DNA from: a virus
DNA length: 51,765 nt
IMG/VR virus record: IMGVR_UViG_3300027782_000120
Coordinates: 1-51,765 of that record
Strand: one strand, 5' to 3'
Shown here: positions 4,162 through 38,310 of the stretch, piece by piece
Layout of the letters: every line of letters starts with the position of its first letter
How positions within the stretch are numbered: the first letter of the stretch is position 1
Made by a program: the position numbers and the translations under genes
The notes under the pieces: model-generated
The model's input: only the letters and a program-made list of their open reading frames with translations
Told to the model about the DNA's origin: nothing
Databases searched by the model: none

Positions 4162-4164
4162 TAT

Positions 4165-4241: not shown

Positions 4242-4246
4242 AATAT

Positions 4247-4322: not shown

Positions 4323-4399
4323 GCCCATATAGCCAAACTGGTAAAGGCGACGGTCTCAAAATCCGTAATCTGTAAGTTCGAGTCTTACTATGGGCACCA
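4323..4399 (+). tRNA. tRNA-Leu (CAA), short variable arm
   Basis: It begins directly after the CCA of the preceding tRNA. The acceptor GCCCATA/TATGGGC is followed by A and CCA. The loop CTCAAAA gives anticodon CAA, with a T-T mismatch beside the loop. The variable loop is again short for leucine. Confidence 0.88.
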
Positions 4400-4400
4400 T

Positions 4401-4474
4401 GCTACCTTAGTGTAATGGCAGCACCCGAGCTTGTGGATCTCGGAGCACAGGATCGATACCTGTAGGTAGTACCA
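4401..4474 (+). tRNA. tRNA-His (GTG)
   Basis: The acceptor GCTACCT/AGGTAGT is followed by A and CCA. The loop TTGTGGA gives anticodon GTG. The base before position 1 is T and the discriminator is A, so the usual G-1:C73 pair of histidine tRNAs is absent. Confidence 0.88.
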
Positions 4475-4481
4475 TTATAAT

Positions 4482-4557
4482 GCCGATGTAGCTCAGTTGG
4501 TAGAGCGCACCCTTCATACGGGTATGGTCACTGGTTCAAGTCCAGTCTTCGGCACCA
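4482..4557 (+). tRNA. tRNA-Met or tRNA-Ile2 (CAT)
   Basis: The acceptor GCCGATG/CTTCGGC (one T-T mismatch) is followed by A and CCA. The loop TTCATAC gives anticodon CAT. It has a normal first acceptor pair, so it is an elongator methionine tRNA or an isoleucine tRNA needing lysidine; the sequence does not decide. Confidence 0.9.
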
Positions 4558-4559
4558 AT

Positions 4560-4635
4560 GCTCCTCTGGTATAGCTGGTGCGTACGCTGGTCTGAAGAAC
4601 CAGAGGATGCGGTTCGATTCCGTGGGGGAGCACCA
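4560..4635 (+). tRNA. tRNA-Phe (GAA)
   Basis: The acceptor GCTCCTC/GGGGAGC is followed by A and CCA. The stem CTGGT/ACCAG closes loop CTGAAGA, giving anticodon GAA. The 3' acceptor strand GGGGAG (4625-4630) is placed to act as the Shine-Dalgarno of the next gene. Confidence 0.94.
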
Positions 4636-4637
4636 AT

Positions 4638-4883
4638 ATGTTTGAATATGTAGTAACTTTTTTTGCCTTGTTTTTCACTGATATATTTTATGTTTACTAC
4701 TTGAAATCAGTTCAAGATGGCAAAACATTAAAAGCTAGTTGTTGGTCTGTTGTGGTATTTTTAATTGCCTGTGTGGCTGTTATCAATTACACAACAGACC
4801 ACATGCTGCTTATACCTGCCGCTGCTGGTGCTTTTCTTGGTACGTATGTAGGTATGATCATAAGAAAGAAACAGGAATTATAA
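4638..4883 (+). CDS. small three-helix membrane protein
   Basis: The 81-residue product is mostly hydrophobic. Helices are predicted at about residues 1-20, 33-50 and 55-74, and a short basic tail (RKK) follows. I do not recognise a family. The ATG lies two bases after tRNA-Phe, and the only purine-rich sequence at proper spacing is GGGGAG inside the tRNA acceptor stem. Translation may therefore compete with tRNA folding or processing. The stop codon overlaps a TATAAATA motif that serves the next gene. A holin-like role is possible but unsupported. Confidence 0.72.
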   Translation: MFEYVVTFFALFFTDIFYVYYLKSVQDGKTLKASCWSVVVFLIACVAVINYTTDHMLLIPAAAGAFLGTYVGMIIRKKQEL

Positions 4884-4886
4884 ATA
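4879..4886 (+). promoter_or_regulatory. T4-late-type promoter TATAAATA
   Basis: A perfect TATAAATA octamer overlaps the stop codon of the membrane protein gene and lies 20 bases before the next ATG. It matches the T4 late promoter core. Confidence 0.55.
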
Positions 4887-4906
4887 CTCCTAAAATAGGA
4901 GATATT

Positions 4907-5551
4907 ATGAAAACACTTGCTCTCTTCAACCATCACCCTGAATGTTCCAATCAGTGTTGTTTTGGTGTGATGAGAGCTTTGGAACCTCGCTACCGAGTTA
5001 AATGGTTTGACGTTCGTTCTAATCTAGATGAGGTTTTAAATGAGTCTGATGGATTGGTTTTTCCTGGCGGCATCGGTGATAGTGATAGCTATTTCGATTT
5101 CTTTACACGTACTAAAGCTAACAAAATCGCAAACTTCATTTCTAGAGGCGGTCGGTATGTGGGCATTTGCATGGGTGCTTATTGGGCTGGTTCTCGATAT
5201 TTTGACCTACTTGATGGGGTAAATCCCACCCAATATATTAAGCAGCCAACTGCTACCATCAAACGTTCATATGGCACAGTAGCATTTGTTTTCTGGGATG
5301 ATCTACCTTATCAGATGTTCTTCTATGACGGTTGCACGTATGTTGGAGAAGGGAAGTACGAATCAGTAGCTACATATACTGATGGTTTACCAATGGCAAT
5401 CATTCAGGGTAACATAGGTCTTATTGGTTGTCATCCCGAGAGCGAAGAATTTTGGTATGAGAAACCGTATCAGTATATAAACAAACACTGGCACAAGGGT
5501 GAACATCACCAGCTGCTATTAGAGTTCGTGGATAAATTATGGTCGAAATAA
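4907..5551 (+). CDS. BPL_N / GATase1-like protein
   Basis: The 214-residue product resembles the biotin-protein-ligase N-terminal (BPL_N) branch of the class I glutamine amidotransferase fold. The oxyanion strand reads GLVFPGGIGDS near residue 49. The nucleophile elbow GICMGAYWAG places Cys88 at the expected position, and a late GCHPESEEFWYEKP segment offers a histidine and glutamate. The reaction in phages is unknown. The ATG at 4907 follows AGGAGATATT with good spacing; the open frame upstream is read-through. The 3' end overlaps the HNH gene by 13 bases. Confidence 0.78.
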   Translation: MKTLALFNHHPECSNQCCFGVMRALEPRYRVKWFDVRSNLDEVLNESDGLVFPGGIGDSDSYFDFFTRTKANKIANFISRGGRYVGICMGAYWAGSRYFDLLDGVNPTQYIKQPTATIKRSYGTVAFVFWDDLPYQMFFYDGCTYVGEGKYESVATYTDGLPMAIIQGNIGLIGCHPESEEFWYEKPYQYINKHWHKGEHHQLLLEFVDKLWSK

Positions 5552-5922
5552 CGAAACTTTCGAATAAAACTGTAAAAGAAGCGCAATCATTTTATTCGAG
5601 TAAGGAATGGAAAGACTGTCGCAAGTTGTTTTTAGAAAATAACTCCAGTCGTGAATGCGTTTATTGCATGCATGATTTTACAGTCGATAGTTCTAAAAAA
5701 CTTAATTTAGATCATATTAAACCATTAAGATTTTACTGGGATCTAAGAACCGAACAATCAAATTTGCAAATAACTTGCGAAGACTGCAATAAAACTAAAA
5801 AAAACAGACGTAATCCTGAAGAAGGAAAAACTACTGATTTTGATTTATCCGTAAGATCTGTTCCAAAAAAACCTTATAACAAACAAAAATATTTTAATTA
5901 TCTAAATAAAAGAAAAATGTAA
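5539..5922 (+). CDS. HNH endonuclease
   Basis: The 127-residue protein has a compact HNH/zinc-ribbon fold. Cys40 and Cys43 form the first zinc knuckle, Asp58-His59 lie in the motif LNLDHIKPLR, Asn75 lies in the following strand, and Cys80/Cys83 form the second knuckle, followed by the basic NKTKKNRR segment. It could be a free-standing homing nuclease or a DNA-processing enzyme. It overlaps the upstream gene and ends just before tRNA-Ser. HNH genes are common passengers in phage tRNA arrays. Confidence 0.85.
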   Translation: MVEITKLSNKTVKEAQSFYSSKEWKDCRKLFLENNSSRECVYCMHDFTVDSSKKLNLDHIKPLRFYWDLRTEQSNLQITCEDCNKTKKNRRNPEEGKTTDFDLSVRSVPKKPYNKQKYFNYLNKRKM

Positions 5923-5931
5923 ACAGTTTAT

Positions 5932-6021
5932 GGAAGGTTGGCCGAGAGGCTTAAGGCACACGTTTGCTAAATGTGCGAACCGTAATTGGTTCCGTGAGTT
6001 CGAATCTCACACCTTCCGCCA
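5932..6021 (+). tRNA. tRNA-Ser (GCT)
   Basis: The acceptor GGAAGGT/ACCTTCC is followed by G and CCA. The stem CACGT/ATGTG closes loop TTGCTAA, giving anticodon GCT. It has the long variable arm expected for serine. Confidence 0.95.
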
Positions 6022-6022
6022 T

Positions 6023-6096
6023 ATCGGTGTAGTTCAATGGTAGAACGGCGGTCTCCAAAACCGCATATCAGGGTTCGATTCCTTGCACCGGTGCCA
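6023..6096 (+). tRNA. tRNA-Trp (CCA)
   Basis: The acceptor ATCGGTG/CACCGGT is followed by G and CCA. The stem GCGGT/ACCGC closes loop CTCCAAA, giving anticodon CCA. A second copy of its 3' end (GGTGCCA) follows at 6099-6105, as if a neighbouring tRNA had been deleted. Confidence 0.94.
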
Positions 6097-8296: not shown

Positions 8297-9241
8297 ATGA
8301 CGCAAAACATTCGTTGGGTTATCGCCCATGAGCCAGTAGACCTTTTCCTTAAGGTTGCTGATTCTTTCTCTAAGGAAGTAAATGAAAAGACTAACGGTGC
8401 TTTTAACATCGAAGTTCTTTCTCTTACTGACTATGCAACAAAGTACAATGGTGGCAAGAAGGTTACTAAGAACGATCTTATGAATCTTATCGACACTGGT
8501 GCTATCGAAATGAGTCATATCTATACTACTTGGCTCGCAGACTACAACAAGGATCTTCACGCTCTTGATCTTCCATTCCTTTTCACTGATCATGCGCATG
8601 CTGATCGTGTTCTCGAAGGCGATCTTGGCAAGTCCTTGCTTGCTGGTGTTTCTGACCAGTCAAACATCAAGGCAATGAGCTTCACTTACTCTGGCGGTTA
8701 TCGTATCGTTCCTGCAAACTTCGCAGCTGATACAGTTTCTGCATGGGAAGGTAAGACAGTTCGTACTTCACGTTCTCCAGTTGCTGTTGATACATTCAAG
8801 CTTCTTGGTGCAAATCCACGTGCTGACATTGAACTTGAAGAAATGAACGCTGCTGCTGACGCTGGTGTTATTGCTGCTGGCGAATCAACCTATGTTCGTG
8901 TGTTCCCACTCGAGCAGAATAAGAGCTTCGAAGTTGTTAACGACACAGCTCATAGCTTGTTCCTAACTTCAATCATCGTGAACCAGGATTTCTTCAAGCA
9001 GTTTGATGCTGCTACTCAGGAAATCTTTGCTGACGCTGCATTCAACGCTGCTCGTAAGGAGCGTCGTGAGTCTGTTGCTGACATTCCAAGCATTCTTGCT
9101 AAGTGCGAAGCTACTGGCGTTAAGGTTGTTAAGATGTCTGATGCTGAAGCAAGCAAGTTCAAGTCAATCACCTCAAAGGTGTATGACATGTACGCTGACT
9201 TCTTCACTCCAGGTCTTGTAGGTAAGCTACAGGCTGCTTAA
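8297..9241 (+). CDS. TRAP transporter DctP-like solute-binding protein without signal peptide
   Basis: The 314-residue product has the whole DctP layout. The first strand and helix end in VNEKTNGAFNIEV. Then come the segment DLPFLFTDHAHADRV near 91-105, the hinge strand YSGGYRIVP, and the carboxylate-binding segment GKTVRTSRSP at 152-161 with Arg156. The helix after LLGANP and the segment with ADAGVIAAGE correspond to the DctP ALQ.GVVDG motif. Normal family members are exported with a signal peptide; here the protein starts at mature residue one, so it should stay in the cytoplasm. GGAG precedes the ATG. No transporter membrane subunits are present. It converges on the BKACE operon. Confidence 0.85.
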   Translation: MTQNIRWVIAHEPVDLFLKVADSFSKEVNEKTNGAFNIEVLSLTDYATKYNGGKKVTKNDLMNLIDTGAIEMSHIYTTWLADYNKDLHALDLPFLFTDHAHADRVLEGDLGKSLLAGVSDQSNIKAMSFTYSGGYRIVPANFAADTVSAWEGKTVRTSRSPVAVDTFKLLGANPRADIELEEMNAAADAGVIAAGESTYVRVFPLEQNKSFEVVNDTAHSLFLTSIIVNQDFFKQFDAATQEIFADAAFNAARKERRESVADIPSILAKCEATGVKVVKMSDAEASKFKSITSKVYDMYADFFTPGLVGKLQAA

Positions 9242-9249
9242 TAAGAATC

Positions 9250-9274
9250 GGGCGGAGGAAACTCCGCCCTTTTT
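9250..9274. terminator. terminator between DctP-like and BKACE genes
   Basis: An eight-pair GC-rich stem, GGGCGGAG 9250-9257 with CTCCGCCC 9262-9269, has a GAAA tetraloop and is followed by five T. It terminates the plus-strand gene. The T tract touches the stop codon of the minus-strand gene. Confidence 0.92.
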
Positions 9275-10143
9275 CATTTGATGCTGAATATTTCTCTAGC
9301 TTCCGCAGTTGTAGCTATCGAGCCACCTAATTCCGTGATAATCCTAACAGCTTTCGCTACTAGCTCTGCATTTGATTTCGCTAGTACGCCTTTCGAAAGA
9401 TAGATATTATCTTCAAGCCCGACACGGACATGTCCCCCATACAATACACTTTGTGCTACTATTGGCATTTCCATAGCACCAATACCGAATGCACTAAACA
9501 CACTACCATGTGGCAGTAATCTACGAGCGTAATCTAATGTTTCTGGACTAGCTTCCCATCCCCACTTAACACCCATGGCAAACTGCCAAAGCGGAGGATC
9601 TTCGATTAAACCCTCATTGATTAGTTGGCGACCGATATGGTAATCGCCTGAATCGAAAATTTCCAACTCTGGCTTACAACCTACTTCTCTGACAGCTGTT
9701 ACCATTTCTCTTGCTACGTTAAGAGTATTGATGGTGATACCTCCAGGGCCACGATTCATCGTATTTAAATCTAGCGAACAGATGTTTGGTTTGAGAGCTA
9801 CAATGTGCTTGACACGCTGTTCTGCCATCTTCAAAAAAGATTTTTGATTGAAGAGGTTCTTCGCAGGTCCTGTAGATCCTGGACCTGTTGTTAAATTAAT
9901 TAGCAAGTCAGGACGTACAGCTTTGATTCGCTCAACAGTTTCTCGATATAGCTCTAGATCCATACTAGGTCCAGCGGTTTCAGGATCTCTAACATGAAGA
10001 TGAACGATAGACGCTCCTGCCTCAGCGGCTTCAATTGCAGAGGTAGCAATTTGTTCAGGAGTTATAGGTAGATAAGGAGTTTGCTCAAGCTTCGTCACAG
10101 CTCCAGTTATAGCACATGTGATTACTGTTTTCTGTTTAATCAT
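9274..10143 (-). CDS. beta-keto acid cleavage enzyme (BKACE, DUF849)
   Basis: The 289-residue product is a full-length member of the BKACE family, typified by 3-keto-5-aminohexanoate cleavage enzyme. It is a zinc TIM barrel that condenses a beta-keto acid with acetyl-CoA and cleaves it. Visible features are ITCAITGA at the first strand, the zinc ligands His48 and His50 in HLHVRDP, NLTTGPG near 83-89, SLDLNTMNRG near 123-131, and GLEDN with the third zinc ligand Glu244. Nothing is truncated. GGAGG precedes the ATG. The start overlaps the SDR gene by four bases. The substrate cannot be read from the sequence. Confidence 0.9.
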   Translation of the reverse strand: MIKQKTVITCAITGAVTKLEQTPYLPITPEQIATSAIEAAEAGASIVHLHVRDPETAGPSMDLELYRETVERIKAVRPDLLINLTTGPGSTGPAKNLFNQKSFLKMAEQRVKHIVALKPNICSLDLNTMNRGPGGITINTLNVAREMVTAVREVGCKPELEIFDSGDYHIGRQLINEGLIEDPPLWQFAMGVKWGWEASPETLDYARRLLPHGSVFSAFGIGAMEMPIVAQSVLYGGHVRVGLEDNIYLSKGVLAKSNAELVAKAVRIITELGGSIATTAEAREIFSIK

Positions 10144-10895
10144 AGTGTTTTTCCTCCATCAATAACAATACAGTTGCCTGTCATAAATCTCATAGTTGTA
10201 GCACAAGCTTCAATCGTGGAAGCTACATCATCAACAACGCCGATGCGCCCCAGTGGAGTTCCTTTGGCATATTTACTCAAGAAGTCAGCAGAGCGATTTT
10301 CTAGGAAGTTTGTATCGACAGCTCCAGGTGCAACAGATATTACTCTTACCTTTGGTGCTAGAGCCTTTGCTAAGTTCCTAGTCATAGAGTCAGTTGCTGC
10401 TTTCGAAGCAGCGTAGGCGATATTGCTTCCGCCTGATTTGACTCCAGCGATTGATGATATATTAACGATTAATCCATCATTGCTATCAATTAACATTGGA
10501 GCGAATGTACGAATCGTAGCAAACACACCACGAAGATTTACTTTCATTATCTGATCAAAAAAATCATCAGTCAAGGCATTTAAATTTTGATGTGGGATCG
10601 TTTTACTAAAACCTGCAGCGTTGACTAGTATGTCGCATCTATCATACCTTTGTTTGATAATTTCGTACGCCGAAATAAGAGATTCAGTGTTATCAATAGA
10701 AGCATAAACTGCTAAATGATTATTGCCCAACATATTCAGTTCGTTCTGAGCATTATCTAGATCTCTCCTGACAATTCCAACGATCGTAGCACCTCTAGCC
10801 GCCAAACGTTTTCCAATCGCCTTCCCCATACCTCCCATGTATCCTGTAATAACAACAACTTTACCGTTCAATGTTTCGAAAGGTTCGAAGCTCAT
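10140..10895 (-). CDS. short-chain dehydrogenase/reductase (SDR)
   Basis: The 251-residue classical SDR has the cofactor loop TGYMGGMG at 17-24, NAAG at 92-95, and the catalytic tetrad Asn120, Ser148, Tyr161 and Lys165 (YAASK). The end, GNCIVIDGG, is typical of FabG-like ketoreductases. Arg43-Arg44 after the second strand suggests NADP(H). It overlaps both neighbours by four bases and has its own GGGAG site. In this operon it would reduce or oxidise a keto or hydroxy group of the substrate handled by the ligase and BKACE. Confidence 0.9.
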   Translation of the reverse strand: MSFEPFETLNGKVVVITGYMGGMGKAIGKRLAARGATIVGIVRRDLDNAQNELNMLGNNHLAVYASIDNTESLISAYEIIKQRYDRCDILVNAAGFSKTIPHQNLNALTDDFFDQIMKVNLRGVFATIRTFAPMLIDSNDGLIVNISSIAGVKSGGSNIAYAASKAATDSMTRNLAKALAPKVRVISVAPGAVDTNFLENRSADFLSKYAKGTPLGRIGVVDDVASTIEACATTMRFMTGNCIVIDGGKTL

Positions 10896-12364
10896 ATAGT
10901 TTCTCCCATATAATAGTTAGCCAACGATTCTAATTCTAGCTTGTTTATCTTATTAGTCCCAGTCAATGGCATTTGATTAATGAACCAAACTCTTCTAGGG
11001 TACTGATAAGCTGGTGCATTTTTCATGACAAACTCTTGGACTTCTCTTTCTGTGACCTCAGAATATTCTTTCCTTACTACGAATGCATATGGTTTGGTGC
11101 CTTTGATTTCATCAGGCAACCCTACTACAGCGGCGGAAGCAATTCCAGGACATTTCTCGATAATTTCCTCAACTTCGCCTGGAAAGATATTTTCTCCACC
11201 ACTGACAAACATGTCATCAGCACGACCCATAAAGAAATAGAATCCATTTTCATCAACATAGAATTTATCTTTGGTATTGAAGAAACCATCTTCGGTTAAT
11301 GTTTTCTGATAGAGATCATGATTCTTATGATAGGTGGTGAGCATCGATGGACTTTTAATATGTAGTACATCGTCAATCAACTTATACTCGATACCTTTTC
11401 TTGGGTATCCTACACTCATTGGTGGCGTTTTCAAATTCGATCCTGGAGGAGCTTTACCAAACAGCCCTGGTCCTACTTCTGTTAAACCATATCTTAATAG
11501 GATCCTAGAGTTAGGGAATCTTTTCTTCGTTTGTTTATACAACTCTGGGCTTGTAGGAGCGGAAGCTAACACGATTTCGTTGATCGAATGAAAACGATAA
11601 TTCGGTGACAAAGATTTATGAGCTAATATCATAGCCATCATTGGCGGTACTAGGACTAAGAAATTAATGTCGTACTCTTGAATGATTTTAATGTACTGCT
11701 CGGCGTCGAAATTTGGCACTAACAGAATGGTAGTTTGACTCAGCAAATTTCTTTCAATATTGGAAAGACCATTCATATGATACAAAGGTGTAGAGATAAG
11801 AATCTTGCATCCTTTGTAGTTTTTGATCTGCCTCTGCATAATCCATCTTCTGCTATTGGTTTTTACAACAACTCCCTTCGGCTCTCCTGTCGATCCAGAG
11901 GTGTATAAGAAAAAAGCAGGGCGATCTTGATCATCAAAAGGCTTGACAAACGGCTCTGATGACATTATAATAGGTAATTGAGAAATTGATAATGACTGTG
12001 TCGATGTAGGTACTTTGTCGATAAACACATCATCATAGAAAACGAATTCAGTATCGCTGTGATCGATAATTTTCGATATCTGTTCTGCAGATAGCTTATG
12101 ATTAATCAGCACAGGCACGAGTCCTGATCTTCTAATCGCAAAATATATTACGATATAATCGAATGAATTGTTAGCTATGATAGCTATTCTGGTTTGTGGT
12201 TCAAAATTCTTTTTCAGAAGACCAGCGGTTACCTGATTAATTTTTTGATCAATATCATAATATGTGTATGATTTTGGCGAACCAGAATTAAAATCAATCA
12301 AAGCAATATTTTGATAGTTTGATTTTACGATTTGATCAGGATTGTTGGTGATGTCTTCAATCAT
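10892..12364 (-). CDS. AMP-forming acyl-CoA synthetase/ligase (ANL superfamily)
   Basis: The 490-residue product has all core ANL motifs. The phosphate loop YTSGSTGEPKG is at 154-164, YGLTE is at 292-296, Asp366 lies in FFNTKDKF, Arg381 lies in the hinge segment FMGRADDMFVSGGENI, and the C-terminal catalytic Lys472 lies in GTNKINK. It would adenylate a carboxylic acid and probably form the CoA thioester. It is the first gene of a three-gene minus-strand operon and overlaps the SDR gene by four bases. GAGGA precedes the ATG, and a minus-strand CTAAATA motif lies about 31 bases upstream. Confidence 0.9.
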   Translation of the reverse strand: MIEDITNNPDQIVKSNYQNIALIDFNSGSPKSYTYYDIDQKINQVTAGLLKKNFEPQTRIAIIANNSFDYIVIYFAIRRSGLVPVLINHKLSAEQISKIIDHSDTEFVFYDDVFIDKVPTSTQSLSISQLPIIMSSEPFVKPFDDQDRPAFFLYTSGSTGEPKGVVVKTNSRRWIMQRQIKNYKGCKILISTPLYHMNGLSNIERNLLSQTTILLVPNFDAEQYIKIIQEYDINFLVLVPPMMAMILAHKSLSPNYRFHSINEIVLASAPTSPELYKQTKKRFPNSRILLRYGLTEVGPGLFGKAPPGSNLKTPPMSVGYPRKGIEYKLIDDVLHIKSPSMLTTYHKNHDLYQKTLTEDGFFNTKDKFYVDENGFYFFMGRADDMFVSGGENIFPGEVEEIIEKCPGIASAAVVGLPDEIKGTKPYAFVVRKEYSEVTEREVQEFVMKNAPAYQYPRRVWFINQMPLTGTNKINKLELESLANYYMGETI

Positions 12365-16958: not shown

Positions 16959-17032
16959 TCGGGGTTAGTTTAATGGTAGAACGAAGGACTTTGAATCCTT
17001 TGGTCGAGGTTCGAGTCCTTGCCCCCGAGCCA
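16959..17032 (+). tRNA. tRNA-Gln (TTG)
   Basis: The acceptor TCGGGG/CCCCGA, with a mismatched seventh pair, is followed by G and CCA. The stem AAGGA/TCCTT closes the normal seven-base loop CTTTGAA, giving anticodon TTG. It lies about 11 kb from the main array and supplies the anticodon that the aberrant tRNA at 2255 would otherwise provide. Confidence 0.94.
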
Positions 17033-19356: not shown

Positions 19357-19971
19357 ATGAAAGTTACCCTCGAACAATTATGCAATTTCTTTGAAGACAC
19401 AGACGATTTCGTTCTCAAGAATTTTGTTGATCCAATTAATCAAGTAATCGAAGATTTTGATATTAATACACCTCAGCGACTAGCAATGTTCCTTGCTCAA
19501 GTCGGTCATGAATCTGGTGGATTAACTAAGCTGCATGAAAATCTAAACTACAAAGCGGATAGACTTGCACAAATCTTCCCCAAATATTTCAAGGGAGTAG
19601 ATACAAGTGAATACGCTCACAATCCTGAAAGAATTGCTAATCTTGTCTATGCATCTCGCATGGGTAATGGCGCTGTTGAGTCTGGTGACGGTTATCGTTT
19701 CCGTGGGCGAGGGGCTATTCAATTAACGGGTCGCTCGAACTACACAGCATGCGGCGGTGATCTTGAAGTCGACTTGATCAATAATCCTGATTGGCTAGAA
19801 ACGCCAGAAGGCGCTCTCATGTCTGCTGCTTGGTTCTGGGATCAGCACGACCTCAATGACTGGGCAGACAAAGGCGATGTTCTTACGGTAACCAAGAAGA
19901 TCAATGGTGGTACTATCGGTCTTGATGAACGTAAAGAATTGTATGAAGAGGCTCTCAAAGTTTTTGCTTGA
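19357..19971 (+). CDS. endolysin, GH19 chitinase-like lysozyme
   Basis: The 204-residue product is a single-domain GH19 muramidase-like endolysin. Residues 44-61 read MFLAQVGHESGGLTKLHE, with Glu52 as general acid and Glu61 as probable second catalytic residue. YRFRGRGAIQLTGRSNY is the substrate-cleft segment. It has no signal peptide or anchor, so it needs a holin for access to the wall. It follows a late-type motif and a leader hairpin. The stop overlaps the upstream part of the next open frame. Confidence 0.93.
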   Translation: MKVTLEQLCNFFEDTDDFVLKNFVDPINQVIEDFDINTPQRLAMFLAQVGHESGGLTKLHENLNYKADRLAQIFPKYFKGVDTSEYAHNPERIANLVYASRMGNGAVESGDGYRFRGRGAIQLTGRSNYTACGGDLEVDLINNPDWLETPEGALMSAAWFWDQHDLNDWADKGDVLTVTKKINGGTIGLDERKELYEEALKVFA

Positions 19972-19982
19972 TAGGATATATT

Positions 19983-21473
19983 ATGAATATTGGTTATGCT
20001 GTTGTTGAACATTTGGACAAAAATCCAAATCAAGTCGTTTTTGAAAACGGTGAACATGTTCTTTATGGAAAACAATTTAGAAACAACATAGTTAGTTTTG
20101 CGCAAAAGATGAGAGAGCTAGGAGTAACACCTGACTCTCTCATTGCTGTTAAGATTGGCCATAATGATATTGACATCGCTCTGACATTAAACTATGCTAC
20201 CTGTTTGATTGGTTGCTCTTGGACTAGAGCAAATGTTTTTATCATGAACGAGTATCATGATAGAATAACACACATCTTTTACTCGACAAATGACTACGAA
20301 GACTCGCGAGCTACATTTATCGATGAAAGTTGGTATACTAGTAGTACAGAGTTTAACTTCGTAGATCATTCAAAACCAGACGATGTATGGATGGTAAATT
20401 ATTCATCTGGCACGACTGGTCTTCCAAAAACTATGAACATTACATATAAGAACTACTGGCACCGCTTGTTTGATTGTGCTAGAGAAGTTGATAATGCTGA
20501 TCGGTTAGCATTGCTTTATCATCCTACTAAGTCAACAGCAATGTATGAAGTTTCAAATGCTGTGTTCAATAATTTGCCAGTGATACTCAACTTCAAGTAT
20601 GAAGATCTTGATCATGAAAGAACTGTAAAGCTGAGTGGGTCACAACTCCAGCATGTTGGACTTATTGGAGATAGACCAGCGCCAGTGAAGCCGTTCAAAG
20701 CAATTGCTGATCCTGCTGGCGCCGCTCTGACACCTGAGAAGCTAAAGCTGTTCCTGTCTCACTTTACGATGTGCACTTCACCATATGGCTCAACTGAATG
20801 CGGAAGAACGTCACATGTTCTCATGTCAGAACCAGAGCAGTGGGATGGTTCTGTTGGTACTATTATGGTTTGTACTGAAGTTCAAATTGTAGATAAGGAT
20901 CATAATGAGCTACCGCCAAATACTGAAGGTATAATTCGAATTAAAACACCAAGAGCAATTAGTTGTTACACAAACTCAGAAGAAGCAACGACTAGATGTT
21001 TCTATGATGGATGGTTTTATCCCCTCGATCTAGGCAAAATGACAGAAGATGGCAGGTTGTTTATTACTGGTAGAATTGATAAGTCGTTTTTAAATATTGG
21101 TGGTATCAAAATTAATACAGCTGAAATTGAAAAGGCTATCATGACACTGCCGATTATTGATGACTGTTCTGTGTTCAAGTGTGAAGATTTCGCCGTTCAC
21201 CAACAACTCTCTGCTATGGTGATAATCAATGATTATGATAGGGTGAAATTTCTAGAAGATATTAATAAAACTGGTATTGAACCAACTAATGAATTCTTTT
21301 TCTACTTCTTGCTGGGCGGAGCGGTTAAAGATGTTTGTTTATATCACAACAATGACATGTCGAAGATGCCAGTCAATATCTACCTTGTTGATGAAATAAC
21401 ACTGAATGATAATGGAAAACCATCAAAGAATATTAGTTCGCTCGAACTAGAGCGATACAAGAAAATATCTTGA
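19983..21473 (+). CDS. AMP-binding enzyme (ANL superfamily), second copy
   Basis: The 496-residue product has the ANL core: YSSGTTGLPK near residues 136-145, YGSTE, a GWFYPLDLGKM motif, the hinge FITGRIDKSFLNIGGIKIN, and a late GKPSK segment that could supply the C-terminal lysine. It is divergent from the minus-strand ligase at 10892-12364, so it is not a recent duplicate. It would activate an acid as an acyl adenylate. It starts after a TAGGATAT site next to the endolysin. Its stop overlaps the -35 of the polymerase promoter. Confidence 0.85.
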   Translation: MNIGYAVVEHLDKNPNQVVFENGEHVLYGKQFRNNIVSFAQKMRELGVTPDSLIAVKIGHNDIDIALTLNYATCLIGCSWTRANVFIMNEYHDRITHIFYSTNDYEDSRATFIDESWYTSSTEFNFVDHSKPDDVWMVNYSSGTTGLPKTMNITYKNYWHRLFDCAREVDNADRLALLYHPTKSTAMYEVSNAVFNNLPVILNFKYEDLDHERTVKLSGSQLQHVGLIGDRPAPVKPFKAIADPAGAALTPEKLKLFLSHFTMCTSPYGSTECGRTSHVLMSEPEQWDGSVGTIMVCTEVQIVDKDHNELPPNTEGIIRIKTPRAISCYTNSEEATTRCFYDGWFYPLDLGKMTEDGRLFITGRIDKSFLNIGGIKINTAEIEKAIMTLPIIDDCSVFKCEDFAVHQQLSAMVIINDYDRVKFLEDINKTGIEPTNEFFFYFLLGGAVKDVCLYHNNDMSKMPVNIYLVDEITLNDNGKPSKNISSLELERYKKIS

Positions 21474-27723: not shown

Positions 27724-29439
27724 ATGTTATCCTTTAAAAATTATTTCTCTTCAGGCTACATGCTCGACTTAACAGAAGAGCTTAATCCTGCTCAAAAAAA
27801 GGTTGTTGATACCTGGAAGGGCGGCAAAAAAGCAGAGCAGATTTCTGGTCATGTTATTCCCAAGGGTCAGGATAGAGTTAGTTTTCCACTCGAAGGTTCA
27901 GAAGAAAATGTTGAACCTCATCCAGACGTTCAGAAGCATCTAGAGCAGCATGGATATAAGGTTTCAGATTATAGAGCTGGTTTAGCAAAAGACAAGTACG
28001 ACCGAGATGTTAAGATTGGCAAGGTATTAGGTAAGACCAAAGCATCTCCTGAGTTGATGAACACATTCAATAATGATCCTAAGAGAGCCGCTTCAAGAGC
28101 AGCTGCTTCTGGTCTTCATGTTACTATCTCTCGTCATCCTCATGACGTTGCTGGTATGTCAACTAACCAAGGCTGGCGCTCGTGCATGTCTATGGGCAAA
28201 AAAGGACAAACAGTTAACGATGAAAATGGAGATGATGAAAAATATGGCGACGACGATGGCGATGCAGGTCAATACAGTCATTATCTAAAAGATGACGTCA
28301 AGCAGGGCACACATGTTGCTTATCTTCATCGCTCTGATGATCCAGAAGCCAAGAAACCTTTGGCAAGAATTGCATTAAAACCATTCCAATCAGAAGATAA
28401 GAAGTCAACTATCCTAAGACCAGAGCAGAGAACATATGGTACTGCCGATGATGGATTTGGTGGAGCTGTGAAGAAGTGGTCTGAAAAACATTTCCCTGCA
28501 GACAAAAGCACAGTATACAAAAAGCATGAAGACCTTTATGATGATGATAATAGAAATATCGTTGCTGATGGACCTGAGGCGTTATTCAAGAGTAAGGATC
28601 AGAATACTAGAGCTGCAGCATTCGATCATGAGCATAATGTTTCAGATGCTATGTTACATAAAGGTATTAAAGATGAATCTAGTTGGGTTGCAAAAGCAGC
28701 TTTAGAGCATCCAAATATTAAACCAGAACATATCGATGCTGCAATGAAAAATAGTGAACTTCATGCAACTCTTGCACGTAGAAAAGATTTAACACCTGAA
28801 CATGTTAAAGAATTGTCTAATACTAAAAATGGTGAAGCTATCCAAAATTTAGCAAAAAATCATAAACTGTCTCCTGAAAAAAATGATGAGTTATTAAATC
28901 ATAGAAGTGCATACATAAGAGAAACTGTAGCACAACATCAGAATCTTTCGAAAGATCAATTAGATAAAGCGATGAGCGATAAAGAGTTTACAGTAAGAGC
29001 GGGGGCTGCAAAAAATAAAAATGCGACTGATGCCCACTTATCAAGTGCAATAAAAGATTCTCCATTTGTTAGATCTTCAGCTTTGCAAAATCAAAACATC
29101 AAACCGAAGCATTTATCAGAGCTTATTAAAAATGGAGATTTTTCAGATCTCGTAAGAACTATAGATCATCCCCAATTTAAAGCTAAACACATATCCGAAA
29201 TTCTTGCTAACAAAGATAACAATGTAAATATACGAACAGAAGTAAAAAGAGAGGCGCTTAATCACGGTTTAGCTAATGAGGATCATTTGACACAGGCATT
29301 ACAACCAGATCAACCAAAAGCTGTCCGTAGAGATGCATTACTACATCCAAATGTACAAAAACACCACTGGGAACATGCTGCGGCATGGGACGACGATAAA
29401 GATATTCGCCAAAGGGCCAAAAAATTATTAGAGGCATAA
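27724..29439 (+). CDS. internal head protein with helical repeats
   Basis: The 571-residue product starts with MLSFKNYF, like four other genes downstream, which resembles the capsid-targeting peptide of T4 internal proteins. A likely protease site, LTE or TEE, lies near residue 19. Residues 130-285 form a mixed domain with GWRSCMSMG and a very acidic loop. Residues 300-570 are about ten degenerate helical repeats of about 24 residues (pattern A..HPNI.PEH...A), similar to variant leucine-rich or ARM repeats. I infer a protein packaged in the head and perhaps injected. The N-terminal domain is not identified. GGAG precedes the ATG. Confidence 0.72.
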   Translation: MLSFKNYFSSGYMLDLTEELNPAQKKVVDTWKGGKKAEQISGHVIPKGQDRVSFPLEGSEENVEPHPDVQKHLEQHGYKVSDYRAGLAKDKYDRDVKIGKVLGKTKASPELMNTFNNDPKRAASRAAASGLHVTISRHPHDVAGMSTNQGWRSCMSMGKKGQTVNDENGDDEKYGDDDGDAGQYSHYLKDDVKQGTHVAYLHRSDDPEAKKPLARIALKPFQSEDKKSTILRPEQRTYGTADDGFGGAVKKWSEKHFPADKSTVYKKHEDLYDDDNRNIVADGPEALFKSKDQNTRAAAFDHEHNVSDAMLHKGIKDESSWVAKAALEHPNIKPEHIDAAMKNSELHATLARRKDLTPEHVKELSNTKNGEAIQNLAKNHKLSPEKNDELLNHRSAYIRETVAQHQNLSKDQLDKAMSDKEFTVRAGAAKNKNATDAHLSSAIKDSPFVRSSALQNQNIKPKHLSELIKNGDFSDLVRTIDHPQFKAKHISEILANKDNNVNIRTEVKREALNHGLANEDHLTQALQPDQPKAVRRDALLHPNVQKHHWEHAAAWDDDKDIRQRAKKLLEA

Positions 29440-30074
29440 TGCTTAATTTTAAAGAACACACACTGATCGAAATGAAAGATCCAGCGCATCCAACGCTTCA
29501 TGCGTTTGATATTGACGAAACGCTATTCGCACATGATCATTCTAAGGTTCGAGTGCACGTGAAGGATCCTGCAGGTAATAGAGTACAAACTCTTACCAAT
29601 CAGGAGTTCAATACACACCAACTTCCTGAAGGTCATAGCTATGACTTTCATGAGTTCAAGTCCGCTGATGTGTTCGAAAAGTCAGCTCATCCTATTCGTA
29701 AGATGATTGCTAAGATGAAGGCGATTCATAAGAACAATAAGAACGTAGAGCTATTGACTGCACGTTCTGATCTTGATGATAAAGAAAAGTTCGCGCATGT
29801 CATGAAGAAGTATGGAATCGATATTAGTAAAATCCATGTGCGTAGAGCTGGTAATCAAGTAGGTAAGAAGCCACCAGAAGCTAAGAAGCAAGTTATCCAC
29901 GATTTGATAAATAAAGAAGGGTATAAGAAAGTCCACCTATATGATGATTCGAAAGACAATCTTGATTCTTTTCTTTCTTTAAAAGGCAAACATCCAACCG
30001 TTGAGTTTCATGCTCACCACGTTGAACATCACCCAGAAACTGGGGAAACGACAGTTACTACAAGGAAAGCATGA
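29439..30074 (+). CDS. HAD-superfamily phosphatase with head-targeting N terminus
   Basis: The 211-residue product begins MLNFKEHTLIE, a probable capsid-targeting peptide ending in a L-I-E protease site. The HAD domain follows: DIDET at 24-28 with nucleophile Asp24 and acid Asp26, LLTARSD near 104-110, Lys residues in the RAGNQVGKKPP loop, and the metal-binding YDDSKDN near 167-173. HAD enzymes of this length include polynucleotide 3'-phosphatases and nucleotidases. Three overlapping genes follow, so it belongs to one transcription unit with the nuclease-like and ligase-like proteins. The start overlaps the preceding stop (TAATG). Confidence 0.8.
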   Translation: MLNFKEHTLIEMKDPAHPTLHAFDIDETLFAHDHSKVRVHVKDPAGNRVQTLTNQEFNTHQLPEGHSYDFHEFKSADVFEKSAHPIRKMIAKMKAIHKNNKNVELLTARSDLDDKEKFAHVMKKYGIDISKIHVRRAGNQVGKKPPEAKKQVIHDLINKEGYKKVHLYDDSKDNLDSFLSLKGKHPTVEFHAHHVEHHPETGETTVTTRKA

Positions 30075-31669
30075 TGTTAAATTTTCTCCAACATATGTTG
30101 AACGAAATGGCGGCATTTTCATCTACTGCTAGCTCTGACGACAAAGGCAAATTGCACGAATTGTTATTAGCTAAACATTTAAGTAAACATCTTGATCCTA
30201 AAGGAGAAGGGTTTCTTCCACAACATTTTAGGGCTTCTCAAGAACATCCAAATAAAAAAATTAAGGGTAAAAGCCCAGAGGAAGTTCATGATGATATTCG
30301 CAGAAGAATTGGTTCAAATGCATTTGACGAAATCAACGATCATGCTAAACAAACTGCTGAAGCTACTATTGCACATTTAATTAAAACTGGAAGAATTAAA
30401 AAAAGAGAAGACATCAAAAATGTTCACTGGACTTCGAATGCAGATACTGATAAAAAAGCTGGAGATCATCAAAATTTAACTCATATAAAAGATGTTAACG
30501 CTAATGGTGATTTAATTCTTACATCAAAACACCCTACTGAAAAAGGTAAAGACGATTTTATACCTATTTCTGCAAAATATGGTTCTCAAGATAAACCTAA
30601 TTTTCGTAATGATGGATTAGATGCTTTAGATGCTAAAGCAGGATTGTCAAATGGCACCCTTGCTGGCCATCAAGCCAATATGGAAAGAGAATTACAAGAC
30701 AAATTGGGCAATCGTCATATTGGCGATAGCCAAGCAGAAAGACACAATTCTTTTAGAGAAGATCGTCATGCTTTAGAAGCAGAAAAAGAAGCTCATACAG
30801 CAAGCGAAAAACAAAGATTATTAGATCATGTCGCCAAAGGTGGAAAGAAAAAAGATTTTGTTTCAAAAGAATTTCAACCAAAATCTAAGGGATCTAAAGC
30901 TGCATCTCAAGCGTATGGTATAGCTCTTGAACATAGAAGAAAAATGGCAGCAGATTTAGCCAAAGGATTTGAACAAACAAGATCAGAAACGGGTTCTGAC
31001 CAACATATGAGAGATTATATTTCAGGTCAAGTTTCACCCAAAACAATATTTAAACATGTTATAGTGCATTCTCACGTTCAAGACGATAACAAGCCTGAAC
31101 TGAAAAAAACTGATGCAAAATCAGTTATTATGGACGCTGATAAAGTTGGTCCAGAACATGTAAGCAACTATAGTGACATAAGAGCTTCTCATGGTAAAGA
31201 AGGTGGAGAAGGTGGTGGTGTGAGTGTGAATTTTTACGGTACGCACAAAGTTTCAGGGAAGAGACATTTAATAGCTACTCAAAGCCTCAAAGGTACTGAC
31301 GGTCCATACAAAGGCACAAATGGTATATTTAATGTAACTAAACATGAATCAGAAGAAGGCGAAGAACCTGTAGTAAAAGATAAAAACACTGGTAAACATA
31401 TTCCAGTACCTGAAAATACACCAAAAAATTCTACTGTTGCTACAATTAAATCATCAAAACCAAACCGTGTTAAACAATCATTCGTCCAACGTACAGCTGC
31501 AGCTGCAAAGAAACCAGCAGTAAAAGCTCCTGCTCCTGTAGCAGCTCCAAAACCTGCTGCTAAAAAAATAGCACCAGCTGCTGATGAAGATAGATTCGAT
31601 AATGAAGGTGGTGGTGGGTCGATCGGCAGTCATAAATGGTTAAGCAGAAGTGAAGCAGGGAATCAATGA
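30074..31669 (+). CDS. internal head protein, possible PD-(D/E)xK nuclease
   Basis: The 531-residue product begins MLNFLQHMLNE, a probable capsid-targeting peptide with an L-N-E cleavage site. Residues 120-170 contain acidic residues (NADTDKKAGDHQN) followed by DFIPISAKYGSQ, with Lys168. A strand ending in an xSxK core after an upstream acidic residue is the pattern of PD-(D/E)xK nucleases, and NFRNDGLDAL follows. The C-terminal 80 residues are a low-complexity Lys/Ala/Pro tail. The nuclease call is tentative. AAGGAA favours ATG 30074, which also fits the shared N-terminal pattern. Confidence 0.62.
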   Translation: MLNFLQHMLNEMAAFSSTASSDDKGKLHELLLAKHLSKHLDPKGEGFLPQHFRASQEHPNKKIKGKSPEEVHDDIRRRIGSNAFDEINDHAKQTAEATIAHLIKTGRIKKREDIKNVHWTSNADTDKKAGDHQNLTHIKDVNANGDLILTSKHPTEKGKDDFIPISAKYGSQDKPNFRNDGLDALDAKAGLSNGTLAGHQANMERELQDKLGNRHIGDSQAERHNSFREDRHALEAEKEAHTASEKQRLLDHVAKGGKKKDFVSKEFQPKSKGSKAASQAYGIALEHRRKMAADLAKGFEQTRSETGSDQHMRDYISGQVSPKTIFKHVIVHSHVQDDNKPELKKTDAKSVIMDADKVGPEHVSNYSDIRASHGKEGGEGGGVSVNFYGTHKVSGKRHLIATQSLKGTDGPYKGTNGIFNVTKHESEEGEEPVVKDKNTGKHIPVPENTPKNSTVATIKSSKPNRVKQSFVQRTAAAAKKPAVKAPAPVAAPKPAAKKIAPAADEDRFDNEGGGGSIGSHKWLSRSEAGNQ

Positions 31670-33537
31670 AAAGTTTTATAGAGTATCTGAAAGAAGCGGC
31701 GGAAGAACCAACTGAAGGTAAGCACGTCAAACATTCAATGCATATTGAAGATGACGTATTGCATCACCGTAATGAGGGGGTTCTTCGTGCACACAAATTT
31801 CTATCAGATGCTCATGAACATCTTCTGGGTAATGACACTCCTGATACCAACTTCAGTACAAAATATGATGGTTCTCCTTCTCTCGTTTATGGTATTCATC
31901 CTAAGACGAAAAAGTTTTTCGTAGCTACTAAGTCTGCTTTCAACAAAGATCCAAAAATCAATTATACTCCAGAAGATATCGAACGTAATCACGGGCACGC
32001 TCCTGGTCTTGTCAAGGTAATGAACCACGTTCTTAAACACCTTTCTAAAACAGTTAAGAAGGGTGTATTTCAAGGCGATGTTATGTATACTAAAGGCGAG
32101 AAGGATGATAACGAAGATGGTCGTGGCGTAGAAACTAAAAACGGAACACACAAGTTTACTCCAAACACTATCTCATATTCTACACCTGAAGATTCTCCTG
32201 AAGGTAAGAAGATTACCCGCTCAAGAATGGGTATCGCCACTCATACTGAATACAAGGGTAATGGTGACATAGAAAATATGAGAGCACAGCCTATTAGCGA
32301 TGAATCTAAAAAAGGCTTGCAAGGCAATCCTGACGTCAATCAAATTGATACTAAGATCAAAGCTAATCCTGCTAACTATACCGCTGCTGACCAAAAAGAA
32401 TATCACGAGCACATGGGAGCAGCCACTCAGCTTTATAAGAGAATGAAACCAGAAGCATTAGAATCGCTCGCTGGTCATGGCGTCAATCTTGAAGCTCATG
32501 TCAACGATATGATTCGAAAGGGAGGCGAGCCTTCTACTGATGGATATATTAAACATCTTACTGACAGACATGAGAAAGCAGTTGCTAAGTTAAAAACTCC
32601 TGCTGCTCGTCAAAAGTTAATTGACACACATTCAAAAGACATAGAGCATATCACAAATAACAAAAAAGATTTCGATAAAGCATTAGAGCTACATAAGCAT
32701 CTACAGAACGCTAAGAATGTTCTTACTCGTGTTATGTCTAAGAATAATCCTTGGGGTCATTCGATTGGTGGCGATCACACTACACAAGAAGGTGTTGCAG
32801 CTGTTAATAAAGATGGTGATCTACACAAGTTCGTTGATCGTGAAGAATTTTCGAAACAGAACTTCTTGAAGGGTAAAATGCAGGCTGCTAGAAAAGCGGC
32901 AACTGAAACCCCTGAAGAAAAACATCATTGGATGTGGTGGGGTCGTGGTCAACCTATTACCAAGGGTCATGAGCAGGGTATTAATAAGACAAGAGATATT
33001 GCAGCTGAAGAAGGCGGTACACACAATATTATGTTCTCTCACTCGCATGATGCAAAAAATCCATTAACTGCCGAGCAAAAGATAAAGCATGCTAAGAGAG
33101 CATTCCCTGGAGCTAATATATCTGCTTCAACAGAAGCACAGCCTAGTATTCTCCATCATGCTGCAGCCGCCCATGCTGCTGGCACTACACACTTGCATGT
33201 TGTTGCTGGCGCTGATAGAGTTGAACAGTATAAAGCATTACTTGATAAGTATAATGGTGTTGCTTCGAGACATGGTCATTACAATTTCAAAGGTATTACA
33301 GTTCATTCCGCTGGCTCTCGCGACCCTGATGCAGAAGGAACTGAAGGTATTTCAGGAACTAAAATGAGAGCTGCTGCAGCTGCTAATGATCGTAAAACAT
33401 TCCACGCTGGTGCACCTGATACTATGACTCCGCAAGAAAAAGACGATATGATGAAAGATACTCAGGCTGGTATTAAGAAATTCGCCCCTCTACAATCACC
33501 AAAACCTCCAGCGCCAAAAGCAACTAAAAAGAAATAA
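31666..33537 (+). CDS. fusion of ligase-like adenylyltransferase and NMNAT-like nucleotidyltransferase, head-targeted
   Basis: The 623-residue protein begins MKSFIEYLKEA, very close to the T4 internal-protein peptide MKTYQEFIAEA, with a predicted cut after L-K-E. Residues 60-410 look like the adenylation domain of ATP-dependent ligases: motif I KYDGS with Lys66 as nucleophile, then GVFQGDVM, EGVAAVNKDGD and HKFVD as motif IV/V-like elements. Residues 420-600 are an NMNAT/NadR-type nucleotidyltransferase with GRGQPITKGH at 426-435 and ISGTKMR at 562-568, matching the (H/T)xGH and ISxTxxR motifs. A Pro/Lys tail ends the protein. The substrates are not known. Confidence 0.8.
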   Translation: MKSFIEYLKEAAEEPTEGKHVKHSMHIEDDVLHHRNEGVLRAHKFLSDAHEHLLGNDTPDTNFSTKYDGSPSLVYGIHPKTKKFFVATKSAFNKDPKINYTPEDIERNHGHAPGLVKVMNHVLKHLSKTVKKGVFQGDVMYTKGEKDDNEDGRGVETKNGTHKFTPNTISYSTPEDSPEGKKITRSRMGIATHTEYKGNGDIENMRAQPISDESKKGLQGNPDVNQIDTKIKANPANYTAADQKEYHEHMGAATQLYKRMKPEALESLAGHGVNLEAHVNDMIRKGGEPSTDGYIKHLTDRHEKAVAKLKTPAARQKLIDTHSKDIEHITNNKKDFDKALELHKHLQNAKNVLTRVMSKNNPWGHSIGGDHTTQEGVAAVNKDGDLHKFVDREEFSKQNFLKGKMQAARKAATETPEEKHHWMWWGRGQPITKGHEQGINKTRDIAAEEGGTHNIMFSHSHDAKNPLTAEQKIKHAKRAFPGANISASTEAQPSILHHAAAAHAAGTTHLHVVAGADRVEQYKALLDKYNGVASRHGHYNFKGITVHSAGSRDPDAEGTEGISGTKMRAAAAANDRKTFHAGAPDTMTPQEKDDMMKDTQAGIKKFAPLQSPKPPAPKATKKK

Positions 33538-34456: not shown

Positions 34457-34921
34457 ATGGATACATTATTTGGTTTAGGTATTATTGCAGTTGCTGGATA
34501 TTTTGTTATTAGATGGGTTCTTAATGAAACTAAAAAGTCTGAAGAACCAGAAACTAAGGTAGAACCAGCTAAGAAGATTGAGTCTGACTTTGTAACGGGT
34601 CTAAGTGTTGCTAAGGAAGAAGTTAAGGTAGAAACTGCTGTTGTAGAAGAAGCCAAGGAAGCTGCTTTTGTTTTATCTAAAGAAGGTGAAAAACTTCTTG
34701 AACCTGTAACTTTAAAGATTGAAACAATTGTAGAGCCAATTCCTGCACTTCTTGTTCAGCATGGCGCTCATTCAGTTGAACCAGTTGAAGTTAAGAAGAA
34801 GGTAAGAACGGTTAAAGCTAAGGCAAAAGCTATTGAAGCAGTTGTTGAAGCTAAGGTAGAAAAGATTGAACAGGCTGTTGTAAAAAAAACAAGAGCAAAG
34901 ACAACAAAGGCTAAGAAGTAA
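34457..34921 (+). CDS. membrane-anchored Lys/Glu/Ala/Val-rich protein
   Basis: The 154-residue product has one N-terminal transmembrane helix (about residues 3-22). The remainder is low-complexity, rich in KVE, KKV and AK repeats, ending in a strongly basic histone-like tail (TRAKTTKAKK). No family is recognised. AGGAGAAAAATT precedes the ATG. It overlaps the Dps-like gene by one base. Confidence 0.7.
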   Translation: MDTLFGLGIIAVAGYFVIRWVLNETKKSEEPETKVEPAKKIESDFVTGLSVAKEEVKVETAVVEEAKEAAFVLSKEGEKLLEPVTLKIETIVEPIPALLVQHGAHSVEPVEVKKKVRTVKAKAKAIEAVVEAKVEKIEQAVVKKTRAKTTKAKK

Positions 34922-35358
34922 TGGATGATCTTATCGAAGAAATGAAGGTATCGCTTGCAAGTACCTTTGCCTTCTACTTGAAGGCTCATAACTTTCATTG
35001 GAATGTGGAGGGCGCTGGCTTTCCACAATACCACTCTTTCTTCGAAGGGATTTACACAGACGCATGGGGCGCTGTTGATGGAATCGCAGAACACCTACGT
35101 ACATTAGGATCATACGCACCTGGTTCTTTCATACGTTATACCGATTTGTCAATTGTTAAGGATGAATTAAATATCCCCCCAGCAATGTCTATGATGACTA
35201 AGTTAACTGCAGATAATACTGCATTGATCGAGCAACTAACAAAGACTCAAACTCTTGCTGAATCAAACAAGAAAATGGGTCTAGCAAATTATCTTCAGGA
35301 TCGCATCGACGCCCATGAGAAAAATGGTTGGATGCTTAAATCGATTACAAAGGCGTAA
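34921..35358 (+). CDS. Dps-like ferritin-family protein
   Basis: The 145-residue product is a Dps/ferritin-like four-helix protein. The core KAHNFHWNVEG with His23 and His26, YHSFFEGIY with His38 and Glu42, and DGIAEHLRTLG with Asp53 and Glu57 give the inter-subunit ferroxidase ligands. Dps proteins form 12-mers that oxidise iron with hydrogen peroxide and can coat DNA. There is no long basic tail. It lies within the internal head protein run and may be late-expressed to protect DNA, which is inference. Confidence 0.85.
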   Translation: MDDLIEEMKVSLASTFAFYLKAHNFHWNVEGAGFPQYHSFFEGIYTDAWGAVDGIAEHLRTLGSYAPGSFIRYTDLSIVKDELNIPPAMSMMTKLTADNTALIEQLTKTQTLAESNKKMGLANYLQDRIDAHEKNGWMLKSITKA

Positions 35359-37365: not shown

Positions 37366-38310
37366 ATGAAATCATTAATCCAATTTATCAAAGAAGCTAG
37401 ACGTTCTAAGATTCGTCCCGATGCAAAACATGGGGACGAAGAAGGTGTTACTGATAAGAGCAACAATATTGCAACAGTTAATATCACTGACGAGAAGAAT
37501 GATGAGCTTGACACCAAGGGTCCAGACGCCCACACGGGTCCTCGCAAGAGAACATTAAAAGCTGCTAGTGCTCCATTAAAAGCATTTAAAGAAGCTTCTG
37601 AAAAGCTCGATACCAAGGGTCCGGACGGTAAAGCTGGTCCTCGTAAGAGAACTTTAAATACCGTAAAAAGTGTAATGAAAGCTTACAAGGAAGATATCAA
37701 CGAAGCACGTGCCGGTCGTCCTAAGAAGAATGCAACAGAAGATGATCCTGGCTCTGAGCATATTATGATGCAGATGCGTAAGGTTATTTCTCTTCGTGGT
37801 CAGCATAAGGTAACTCACGTATCTGGTGAAAAATCAGATGTGTCTCCTACACAGGCGCACAAGGCTATCGCTCATCACGATAATCTCAAGACATCTGCTG
37901 AGAAAGATACTTACGCTAAGAGATTACATCGCAGCGCTTCTTCAATGCAAGATGCTCTATCAGGTAAGGCAGAAGTTCATAAGCCAAAAATTAGTCTTGG
38001 TGGTAAGATCACAGGGACTCAGAGCGAAGGTTTTTTAGACGTAACCCCTAAGACGGGGAAAATGACACACGTTACTATCAACAAAACAGCTCGTAGTAAA
38101 TCCGCTAATGCACCTGCTTCTTCTGGTCCTTCTCAGACTGCTGCAACTAATAGATCAGCTAATCTTCAGCAAAATGCAGAAGCTGAATCAAAAGCTAAGA
38201 AAGATGCATCTTCACAAGAAATTGCTAAGAGAAAAACAGCTGAAAAAATTCGTAAGTCTGTTGCACCTAGAGCGCCAGAAGCTCCACAGGCAAAACAAAT
38301 GGGTGTTTAA
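37366..38310 (+). CDS. basic internal head protein with targeting peptide
   Basis: The 314-residue product starts MKSLIQFIKEARRSK, close to the T4 internal-protein peptide, with a predicted cut after I-K-E. A direct repeat, LDTKGPD and GPRKRTL, occurs twice in residues 45-105. A second site, INE, precedes an AT-hook-like segment ARAGRPKK. The C terminus is Ala/Lys/Ser-rich. It probably binds DNA in the head. ATG 37366 is chosen because it yields the conserved peptide; the upstream open frame overlaps the previous gene. Confidence 0.72.
   Translation: MKSLIQFIKEARRSKIRPDAKHGDEEGVTDKSNNIATVNITDEKNDELDTKGPDAHTGPRKRTLKAASAPLKAFKEASEKLDTKGPDGKAGPRKRTLNTVKSVMKAYKEDINEARAGRPKKNATEDDPGSEHIMMQMRKVISLRGQHKVTHVSGEKSDVSPTQAHKAIAHHDNLKTSAEKDTYAKRLHRSASSMQDALSGKAEVHKPKISLGGKITGTQSEGFLDVTPKTGKMTHVTINKTARSKSANAPASSGPSQTAATNRSANLQQNAEAESKAKKDASSQEIAKRKTAEKIRKSVAPRAPEAPQAKQMGV

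Follow-up and report, generated by a model that had tools for sequence, protein, structure and literature searches.

Four genes arranged head to tail in a T4-like phage raise the question of what enzymes that seem to act on nucleotides or nucleic-acid ends are doing behind peptides of the kind that direct proteins into a phage head. The window analysed here, i.e., the whole of the lake-type virus record IMGVR_UViG_3300027782_000120 (51,765 nucleotides, 51.8 kb), keeps the usual T4-like order of the genes for the family B DNA polymerase, UvsX, the gp41 helicase, and a primase Zn-ribbon protein, and the four genes, on the + strand, separate the gp41 gene from that of the primase. Three of them overlap, as the initial annotation had it, each junction covering 4 bp (open reading frames (ORFs) 29439-30074, 30071-31669, and 31666-33537), and encode a HAD-superfamily phosphatase, a putative PD-(D/E)xK nuclease, and a fusion of a DUF6267 domain with an adenylyltransferase-like domain. 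The reading we favour, at a probability of roughly 45% for the kit as a whole, is that they constitute a virion-delivered set of enzymes for the healing and sealing of nucleic-acid ends. End healing and sealing had already been suggested from the letters of the sequence; it gains from the ligase motifs, the reciprocal distribution with known ligases, and the recurrence of HAD and nuclease neighbours described below, and the initial interpretation as a whole is borne out in part.

The fusion gene (31666..33537, 623 amino acids) is the centre of the module. Residues 22-404 (31729..32877) correspond to Pfam DUF6267 (E 9e-83; 279 bits vs a gathering cut-off of 27; profile positions 2-376 of 376), and residues ~396-605 match phage 'cytidyltransferase' (CyT) PHROGs (E 2e-49), with the CyT domain itself at 32911..33480. 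The AlphaFold model of the whole fusion has a mean predicted local distance difference test (pLDDT) score of 91.6. Lys66 in the first half and GRGQPITKGH and ISGTKMR in the second, the latter accompanied by AGADR, are present as claimed before, and so is the joining of an adenylation-type to an NMNAT-like domain. The view that this combination is peculiar to one phage proved wrong. Relatives of the fusion were found by tblastn in 490 phage records, mainly of cyanophages, where DUF6267 (PF19782; phrog_455; T4-GC 71) and CyT (T4-GC 190) are mostly encoded by separate adjoining genes. Among the nonredundant DUF6267 loci of environmental contigs having enough flank, CyT was fused to DUF6267 or located within 2.5 kb of it in 55/57; the two are fused in 12 nonredundant environmental loci, and cultured cyanophage S-PM2 (LN828717) also encodes a fusion, of 591 amino acids. 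Each of the 15 complete phages with DUF6267 that were examined has a CyT as well, including those in which the genes lie far apart, and the pair has its place in the replication block, with gp41 on one side and gp61 on the other. Given the near-obligate pairing and the S-PM2 fusion, DUF6267 and CyT form a core pair that is widespread among aquatic T4-like phages rather than a curiosity of a single genome. For DUF6267 itself no function is described, and no paper naming the family was found in the library searched. An apparent frameshift divides the fusion in the first S-PM2 record (L238, NC_006820, ~103530) but does not occur in LN828717. A second, longer CyT paralogue, with a start like MKNYRQLIKELPS, lies close by in many loci (L028, L041, L057, L109, L110, and others).

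The residues conserved in DUF6267 point to covalent nucleotidyl transfer. Lys66, Asp68, Gly69, Gln136, Asp138, Glu375, Gly376, Lys388, and Arg392 are invariant in 84/84 nonredundant DUF6267 sequences (the motif V counts being taken from a separate DUF6267 alignment); K89 is likewise kept in 84/84, and G137 of QGD138 is replaced by A in five. In the model of the fusion, the strands bearing motifs I (K66xDG), III, IV (E375G), and V follow the ligase order. A five-motif pattern, composed after the family had been inspected, occurs in 134/138 DUF6267 ORFs vs 4/658 other ORFs, and a motif IV-V string like that of T4 Rnl1 in 23/84 DUF6267 sequences, 8/34 Rnl1 sequences, and 1/4244 other ORFs. DUF6267 is likely a covalent nucleotidyltransferase with Rnl1-like motifs, and the odds that it possesses ligase activity appear about even.

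Several observations weigh against a ligase. In motif III of DUF6267 the E of ligases is replaced by D, and V390 occupies the position of the second motif V lysine (Rnl1 K242). Neither hhalign (probability ≤2.1%) nor hmmsearch revealed significant homology of DUF6267 to Rnl1 or Rnl2, and the search of PDB sequences with the DUF6267 profile, like that of Pfam, yielded nothing significant. The structure comparison proposed in the initial annotation was informative for the CyT half, which matches NadD, NMNAT, and CoaD, and for the nuclease, which matches MspI; the DUF6267 half, by contrast, is absent from the top 50 Foldseek matches of the whole fusion model, all of which cover the C-terminal domain; among viral models, Foldseek recovered the same families and no others. 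Since the profile searches did not significantly link DUF6267 to either RNA ligase, we call it probably ligase-nucleotidyltransferase-like in action and not 'an Rnl1', and do not claim membership of the Rnl1 family.

The distribution of known ligases adds to the argument. Homologues of the T4 gene 30 DNA ligase have not been found in cyanomyoviruses (reviewed in PMC2984593). We searched 23 complete phages, 15 with DUF6267 and 8 without, for the ligase families PF01068 and PF09414. Neither was found in 14/15 of the DUF6267 phages, and both occur in 7/8 of the T4-like phages that lack DUF6267 (T4, KVP40, Cr30, phiM12, Aeh1, RB49, and Ac42), though the RNA ligase match of RB49, counted as present, is under the cut-off. 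The anticorrelation is significant in Fisher's test (p 2.5e-4, uncorrected for phylogeny), and no NAD+-dependent ligase was found in the 11 phages searched for one. DUF6267 may be the missing ligase of aquatic T4-like phages. Against this stand two exceptions, Pseudoalteromonas phage XG4, which has DUF6267 together with PF01068 and PF09414, and S-TIM5, which has neither DUF6267 nor either ligase; moreover, the reciprocal pattern tracks phylogeny (Kyanoviridae vs Straboviridae).

The two genes upstream of the fusion encode the enzymes that would prepare ends for sealing. In the HAD protein (29439..30074, 211 amino acids; leader MLNFKEHTLIEM) the DxDxT, T, K, and DDxxxN motifs are intact, and 12 relatives keep D24xD26xT28, T107, K149, and D169D170xxxN174 without variation, which upholds the earlier phosphatase call. 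It matches the PHROG 'polynucleotide kinase' (E 1e-12), and in 15 loci DUF6267 has a member of this HAD family nearby. The lack of BLASTP similarity to T4 PseT (E 0.24) speaks against an end-healing role. In the second protein (30071..31669, 532 amino acids; leader MLNFLQHMLNEM from the second Met at 30074) the possible PD-(D/E)xK nuclease noticed at the outset is recognizable by a variant SxK site: E29, D146, and S166xK168 are invariant in 15 relatives, with identity down to 14%, and the best fold match of the model (mean pLDDT 76.7) is the restriction enzyme MspI (E 5e-4, prob 0.99). This family is close to DUF6267 in 23 loci; its relatives were found solely by phmmer on the fetched loci, and tblastn against phage records gave none. 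In HTVC008M, a P-loop kinase gene lies between DUF6267 and CyT. Healing-type partners therefore recur beside DUF6267, and none of them is universal. Two further observations concern nucleases. A second leader-bearing family (cluster 18; L061, L074, and others), possibly a different nuclease, is encoded directly downstream of DUF6267 in 9/12 loci. ORF90 of S-SCSM1 (L163 37459-38793), a virion protein detected by mass spectrometry (MS) and encoded upstream of the virion NMNAT, contains the PD-(D/E)xK-like string PADIYV ... FGVSLKK, which suggests co-packaged nucleases in cyanophages too.

This company bears on a different role for the pair, in which DUF6267 and CyT would put AMP or another nucleotide on a protein, an RNA 5' end, or DNA as a host-directed modification, with no sealing. 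The covalent nucleotidyltransferase motifs are common to ligases and capping enzymes, the divergence of motifs III and V would fit, and T4 injects the ADP-ribosyltransferase Alt (by annotation), which ADP-ribosylates RNA polymerase. However, the synteny with the replication block, the distribution reciprocal to that of ligases, and the nuclease and HAD neighbours favour nucleic-acid ends. We regard such tagging as improbable.

The proposal that the kit is delivered with the virion relies on the leader peptides. An 11-residue leader (M..F..FL.E.) is present on 75/83 DUF6267 relatives vs ~5% of other genes, and many CyTs, as well as nuclease partners, have one of the same type. When a matrix built from the DUF6267 leaders was applied to 98 T4 genes, ipIII and ipII took ranks 1-2 and ipI rank 4; this ranking identifies the leader as the T4 capsid-targeting type, known from the T4 internal proteins (PMC3012670). 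Among 241 start sites in the window, the five top scores belong to 31666, 37366, 27724, 30074, and 29439, exactly the five suspected genes. The fusion leader MKSFIEYLKEA (31666..31698) ranks first with 21.6 bits, itself belonging to the training set of the matrix; second is MKSLIQFIKEA on a protein without a Pfam match, encoded outside the core module (37366..38310, + strand). Scores in the window are low (2-3 bits) for the leaders of the HAD protein and the nuclease, but canonical leaders occur in several of their relatives. Published proteomics supports the signal: CyT was detected in virions of S-SM1 (PMC3037559), S-SZBM1 (PMC9146016), S-SCSM1 (PMC9602691), and S-CREM2 (PMC10665884), and the sequences of the first three all start with a leader. 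Conversely, CyT (T4-GC190) was published as not detected in virions of S-PM2, whose fusion has no leader, and the leaderless DUF6267 of S-SZBM1 is missing from the MS table of its virions. This correlation between leader and virion detection is a natural test, in few phages. Together with the ranking of starts it sustains the packaging peptides noted initially, and the packaging signal and gene anatomy are well supported. What weighs against delivery of the putative sealing enzyme is that no literature report of DUF6267 itself in virions was found.

The same leaders count against the view that DUF6267 is mainly an intracellular ligase of Okazaki fragments for its clade, with packaging a secondary development of leadered lineages. 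That view accords with the gp41-gp61 location, with the absence of g30 homologues from the same phages (PMC2984593), and with the leaderless DUF6267 copies carried by cyanophages. Nevertheless, a leader on ~80-90% of environmental DUF6267 copies would be odd for a purely replicative enzyme, the motifs are nearer to RNA ligase Rnl1 than to DNA ligase, and the CyT and nuclease partners are left unexplained, so that a chiefly replicative function seems to us a poor prospect.

The CyT domain introduces another possibility. Its matches to NadD, NMNAT, and CoaD structures (E 3e-4 to 6e-4) were obtained with the C-terminal half of the fusion, and GxxxPxxxGH and SxxKxR are near invariant in 56 CyT members. 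In 55/56 of them the first position of HxGH is Thr, as in CoaD, and CoaD is also the top sequence-profile match (E 0.002). In the predicted structure the domain is of the adenylyltransferase fold (HIGH superfamily, PF01467-like). Literal cytidyltransferase activity is disfavoured, as TxGH is the pattern of CoaD and adenylyltransferases. Nicotinamide mononucleotide (NMN) is a reasonable candidate substrate, and NAD+ synthesis by CyT is conceivable, if somewhat doubtful. The initial annotation had named as its second option a module in which the C-terminal NMNAT would rebuild NAD+ from NMN and ATP, as a countermeasure to NAD-depleting defences; in such a module, working at entry, DUF6267 would use this NAD+ or act as a partner adenylyltransferase. 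The fold, the NMNAT-like look of GR.QP and SGT.xR, and weak matches to NCBIfam NMN adenylyltransferase models are in keeping with it; NMNAT-like proteins have been found repeatedly in cyanophage virions, with an NAD+ role already proposed (PMC9602691, PMC10665884), and salvage of NAD+ is an established way for phages to counter defences (PMC9503650). On the other hand, no NMNAT model matches CyT above its curated cut-off (the best, NCBIfam PRK01153, at 14.7 bits vs 127), and the residue pattern is CoaD-like. NadV, which would supply NMN, was not found in any of the nine DUF6267 phages searched (KVP40 has it), whereas phage NadM is always accompanied by NadV (PMC9503650). Finally, the near-obligate ligase-like partner would be left unexplained. 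An NAD+ module is thus a possible explanation and, in our estimate, an unlikely one.

In the end-healing and sealing reading, the T4-type leader would bring each protein into the prohead core, the prohead protease would cleave it off, and the proteins would be injected along with the DNA. The nuclease would then trim or cut, and the HAD enzyme would take off a 3'-phosphate. Lys66 of DUF6267 would be adenylylated, and the AMP handed to a 5'-phosphate end, which would then be sealed; in most DUF6267 phages examined the domain would stand in for the absent DNA and RNA ligases. Next to the ligase, the fused NMNAT/CoaD-fold domain would make a product linked to AMP, NAD+ being the likeliest candidate. 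A bolder version, which we consider a long shot, makes DUF6267 the polynucleotide ligase that has gone unrecognised in aquatic T4-like phages; it would be physically coupled to an NMNAT and, in leadered lineages, delivered with the virion, and the two could form a closed cycle: the ligase would spend NAD+ and release NMN, and NMNAT would recharge NMN with ATP. Sealing would then no longer draw on the NAD+ pool of the host.

Together, DUF6267 and the partner adenylyltransferase belong to the core gene set of some of the most abundant aquatic viruses; hundreds of members have been sequenced, and no function has been described. Earlier papers had reported the virion NMNAT-like protein and put forward the NAD+ hypothesis; new here are the set of ligase motifs, the reciprocal ligase distribution, and the link between leader and virion. 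A 'hypothetical protein' becomes a testable ligase candidate and a possible answer to the apparent lack of DNA ligase in marine T4-like phages, and the long-noted NMNAT-like virion proteins are linked to an injection signal of the T4 type, one that is recognizable in the sequence itself.

Other genes of the window deserve mention. The first gene of the head-to-tail string (27724..29439) encodes a leader-bearing protein of 571 amino acids with weak LRV/DUF2336-like repeats, a possible co-packaged partner of the enzymes; among the fetched loci its relatives occur only in near-identical contigs. A Ferritin/Dps-like gene lies at 34921-35358; in 33 loci a relative of it accompanies DUF6267-CyT, usually on the downstream side and separated by a few genes. 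A metabolic cassette (8297-12364) contains genes for a DctP TRAP-type binding protein, a beta-keto acid cleavage enzyme, an SDR, and acyl-CoA synthetase-like proteins, and a further AMP-binding enzyme is encoded at 19968-21473. There are 26 tRNA genes within 78-6096 and 16959-17032, for one of which a four-base anticodon is predicted (ttga, 2255-2328).

Each part of the module resembles a known system and departs from it. The N-terminal half of the fusion is a full-length member of the DUF6267 family, to which the window copy adds a fused adenylyltransferase and a packaging leader. The C-terminal half belongs to the same family as the phage 'cytidyltransferase' or NMNAT-like proteins (phrog_3041, phrog_395; T4-GC 190); it shares with NadD, NMNAT, and CoaD the fold, (T/H)xGH, and S[GA][TS]KxR, yet stays under every curated cut-off. 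The virion CyTs of S-SM1, S-SZBM1, and S-SCSM1 are products of stand-alone genes, whereas that of the window is half of a fusion, and S-PM2d138 of S-PM2 (LN828717) unites the same domains in one protein but has no leader. With T4 Rnl1 (gp63), DUF6267 has in common motif I KxDG[S/A], FxxKS, EG[YFV]V, and K; it differs in a long helical insert (residues ~240-358), in D for E in motif III, and in V for the second lysine of motif V. T4 Rnl1 with Pnkp is not known to be packaged in T4; the companions here are the HAD phosphatase and, in HTVC008M, the P-loop kinase. The leader pattern of the window proteins is that of T4 IPI, IPII, IPIII, and Alt, but the packaged cargo of T4 consists of anti-restriction proteins and an ADP-ribosyltransferase, and not of nucleic-acid enzymes such as those predicted in the window.

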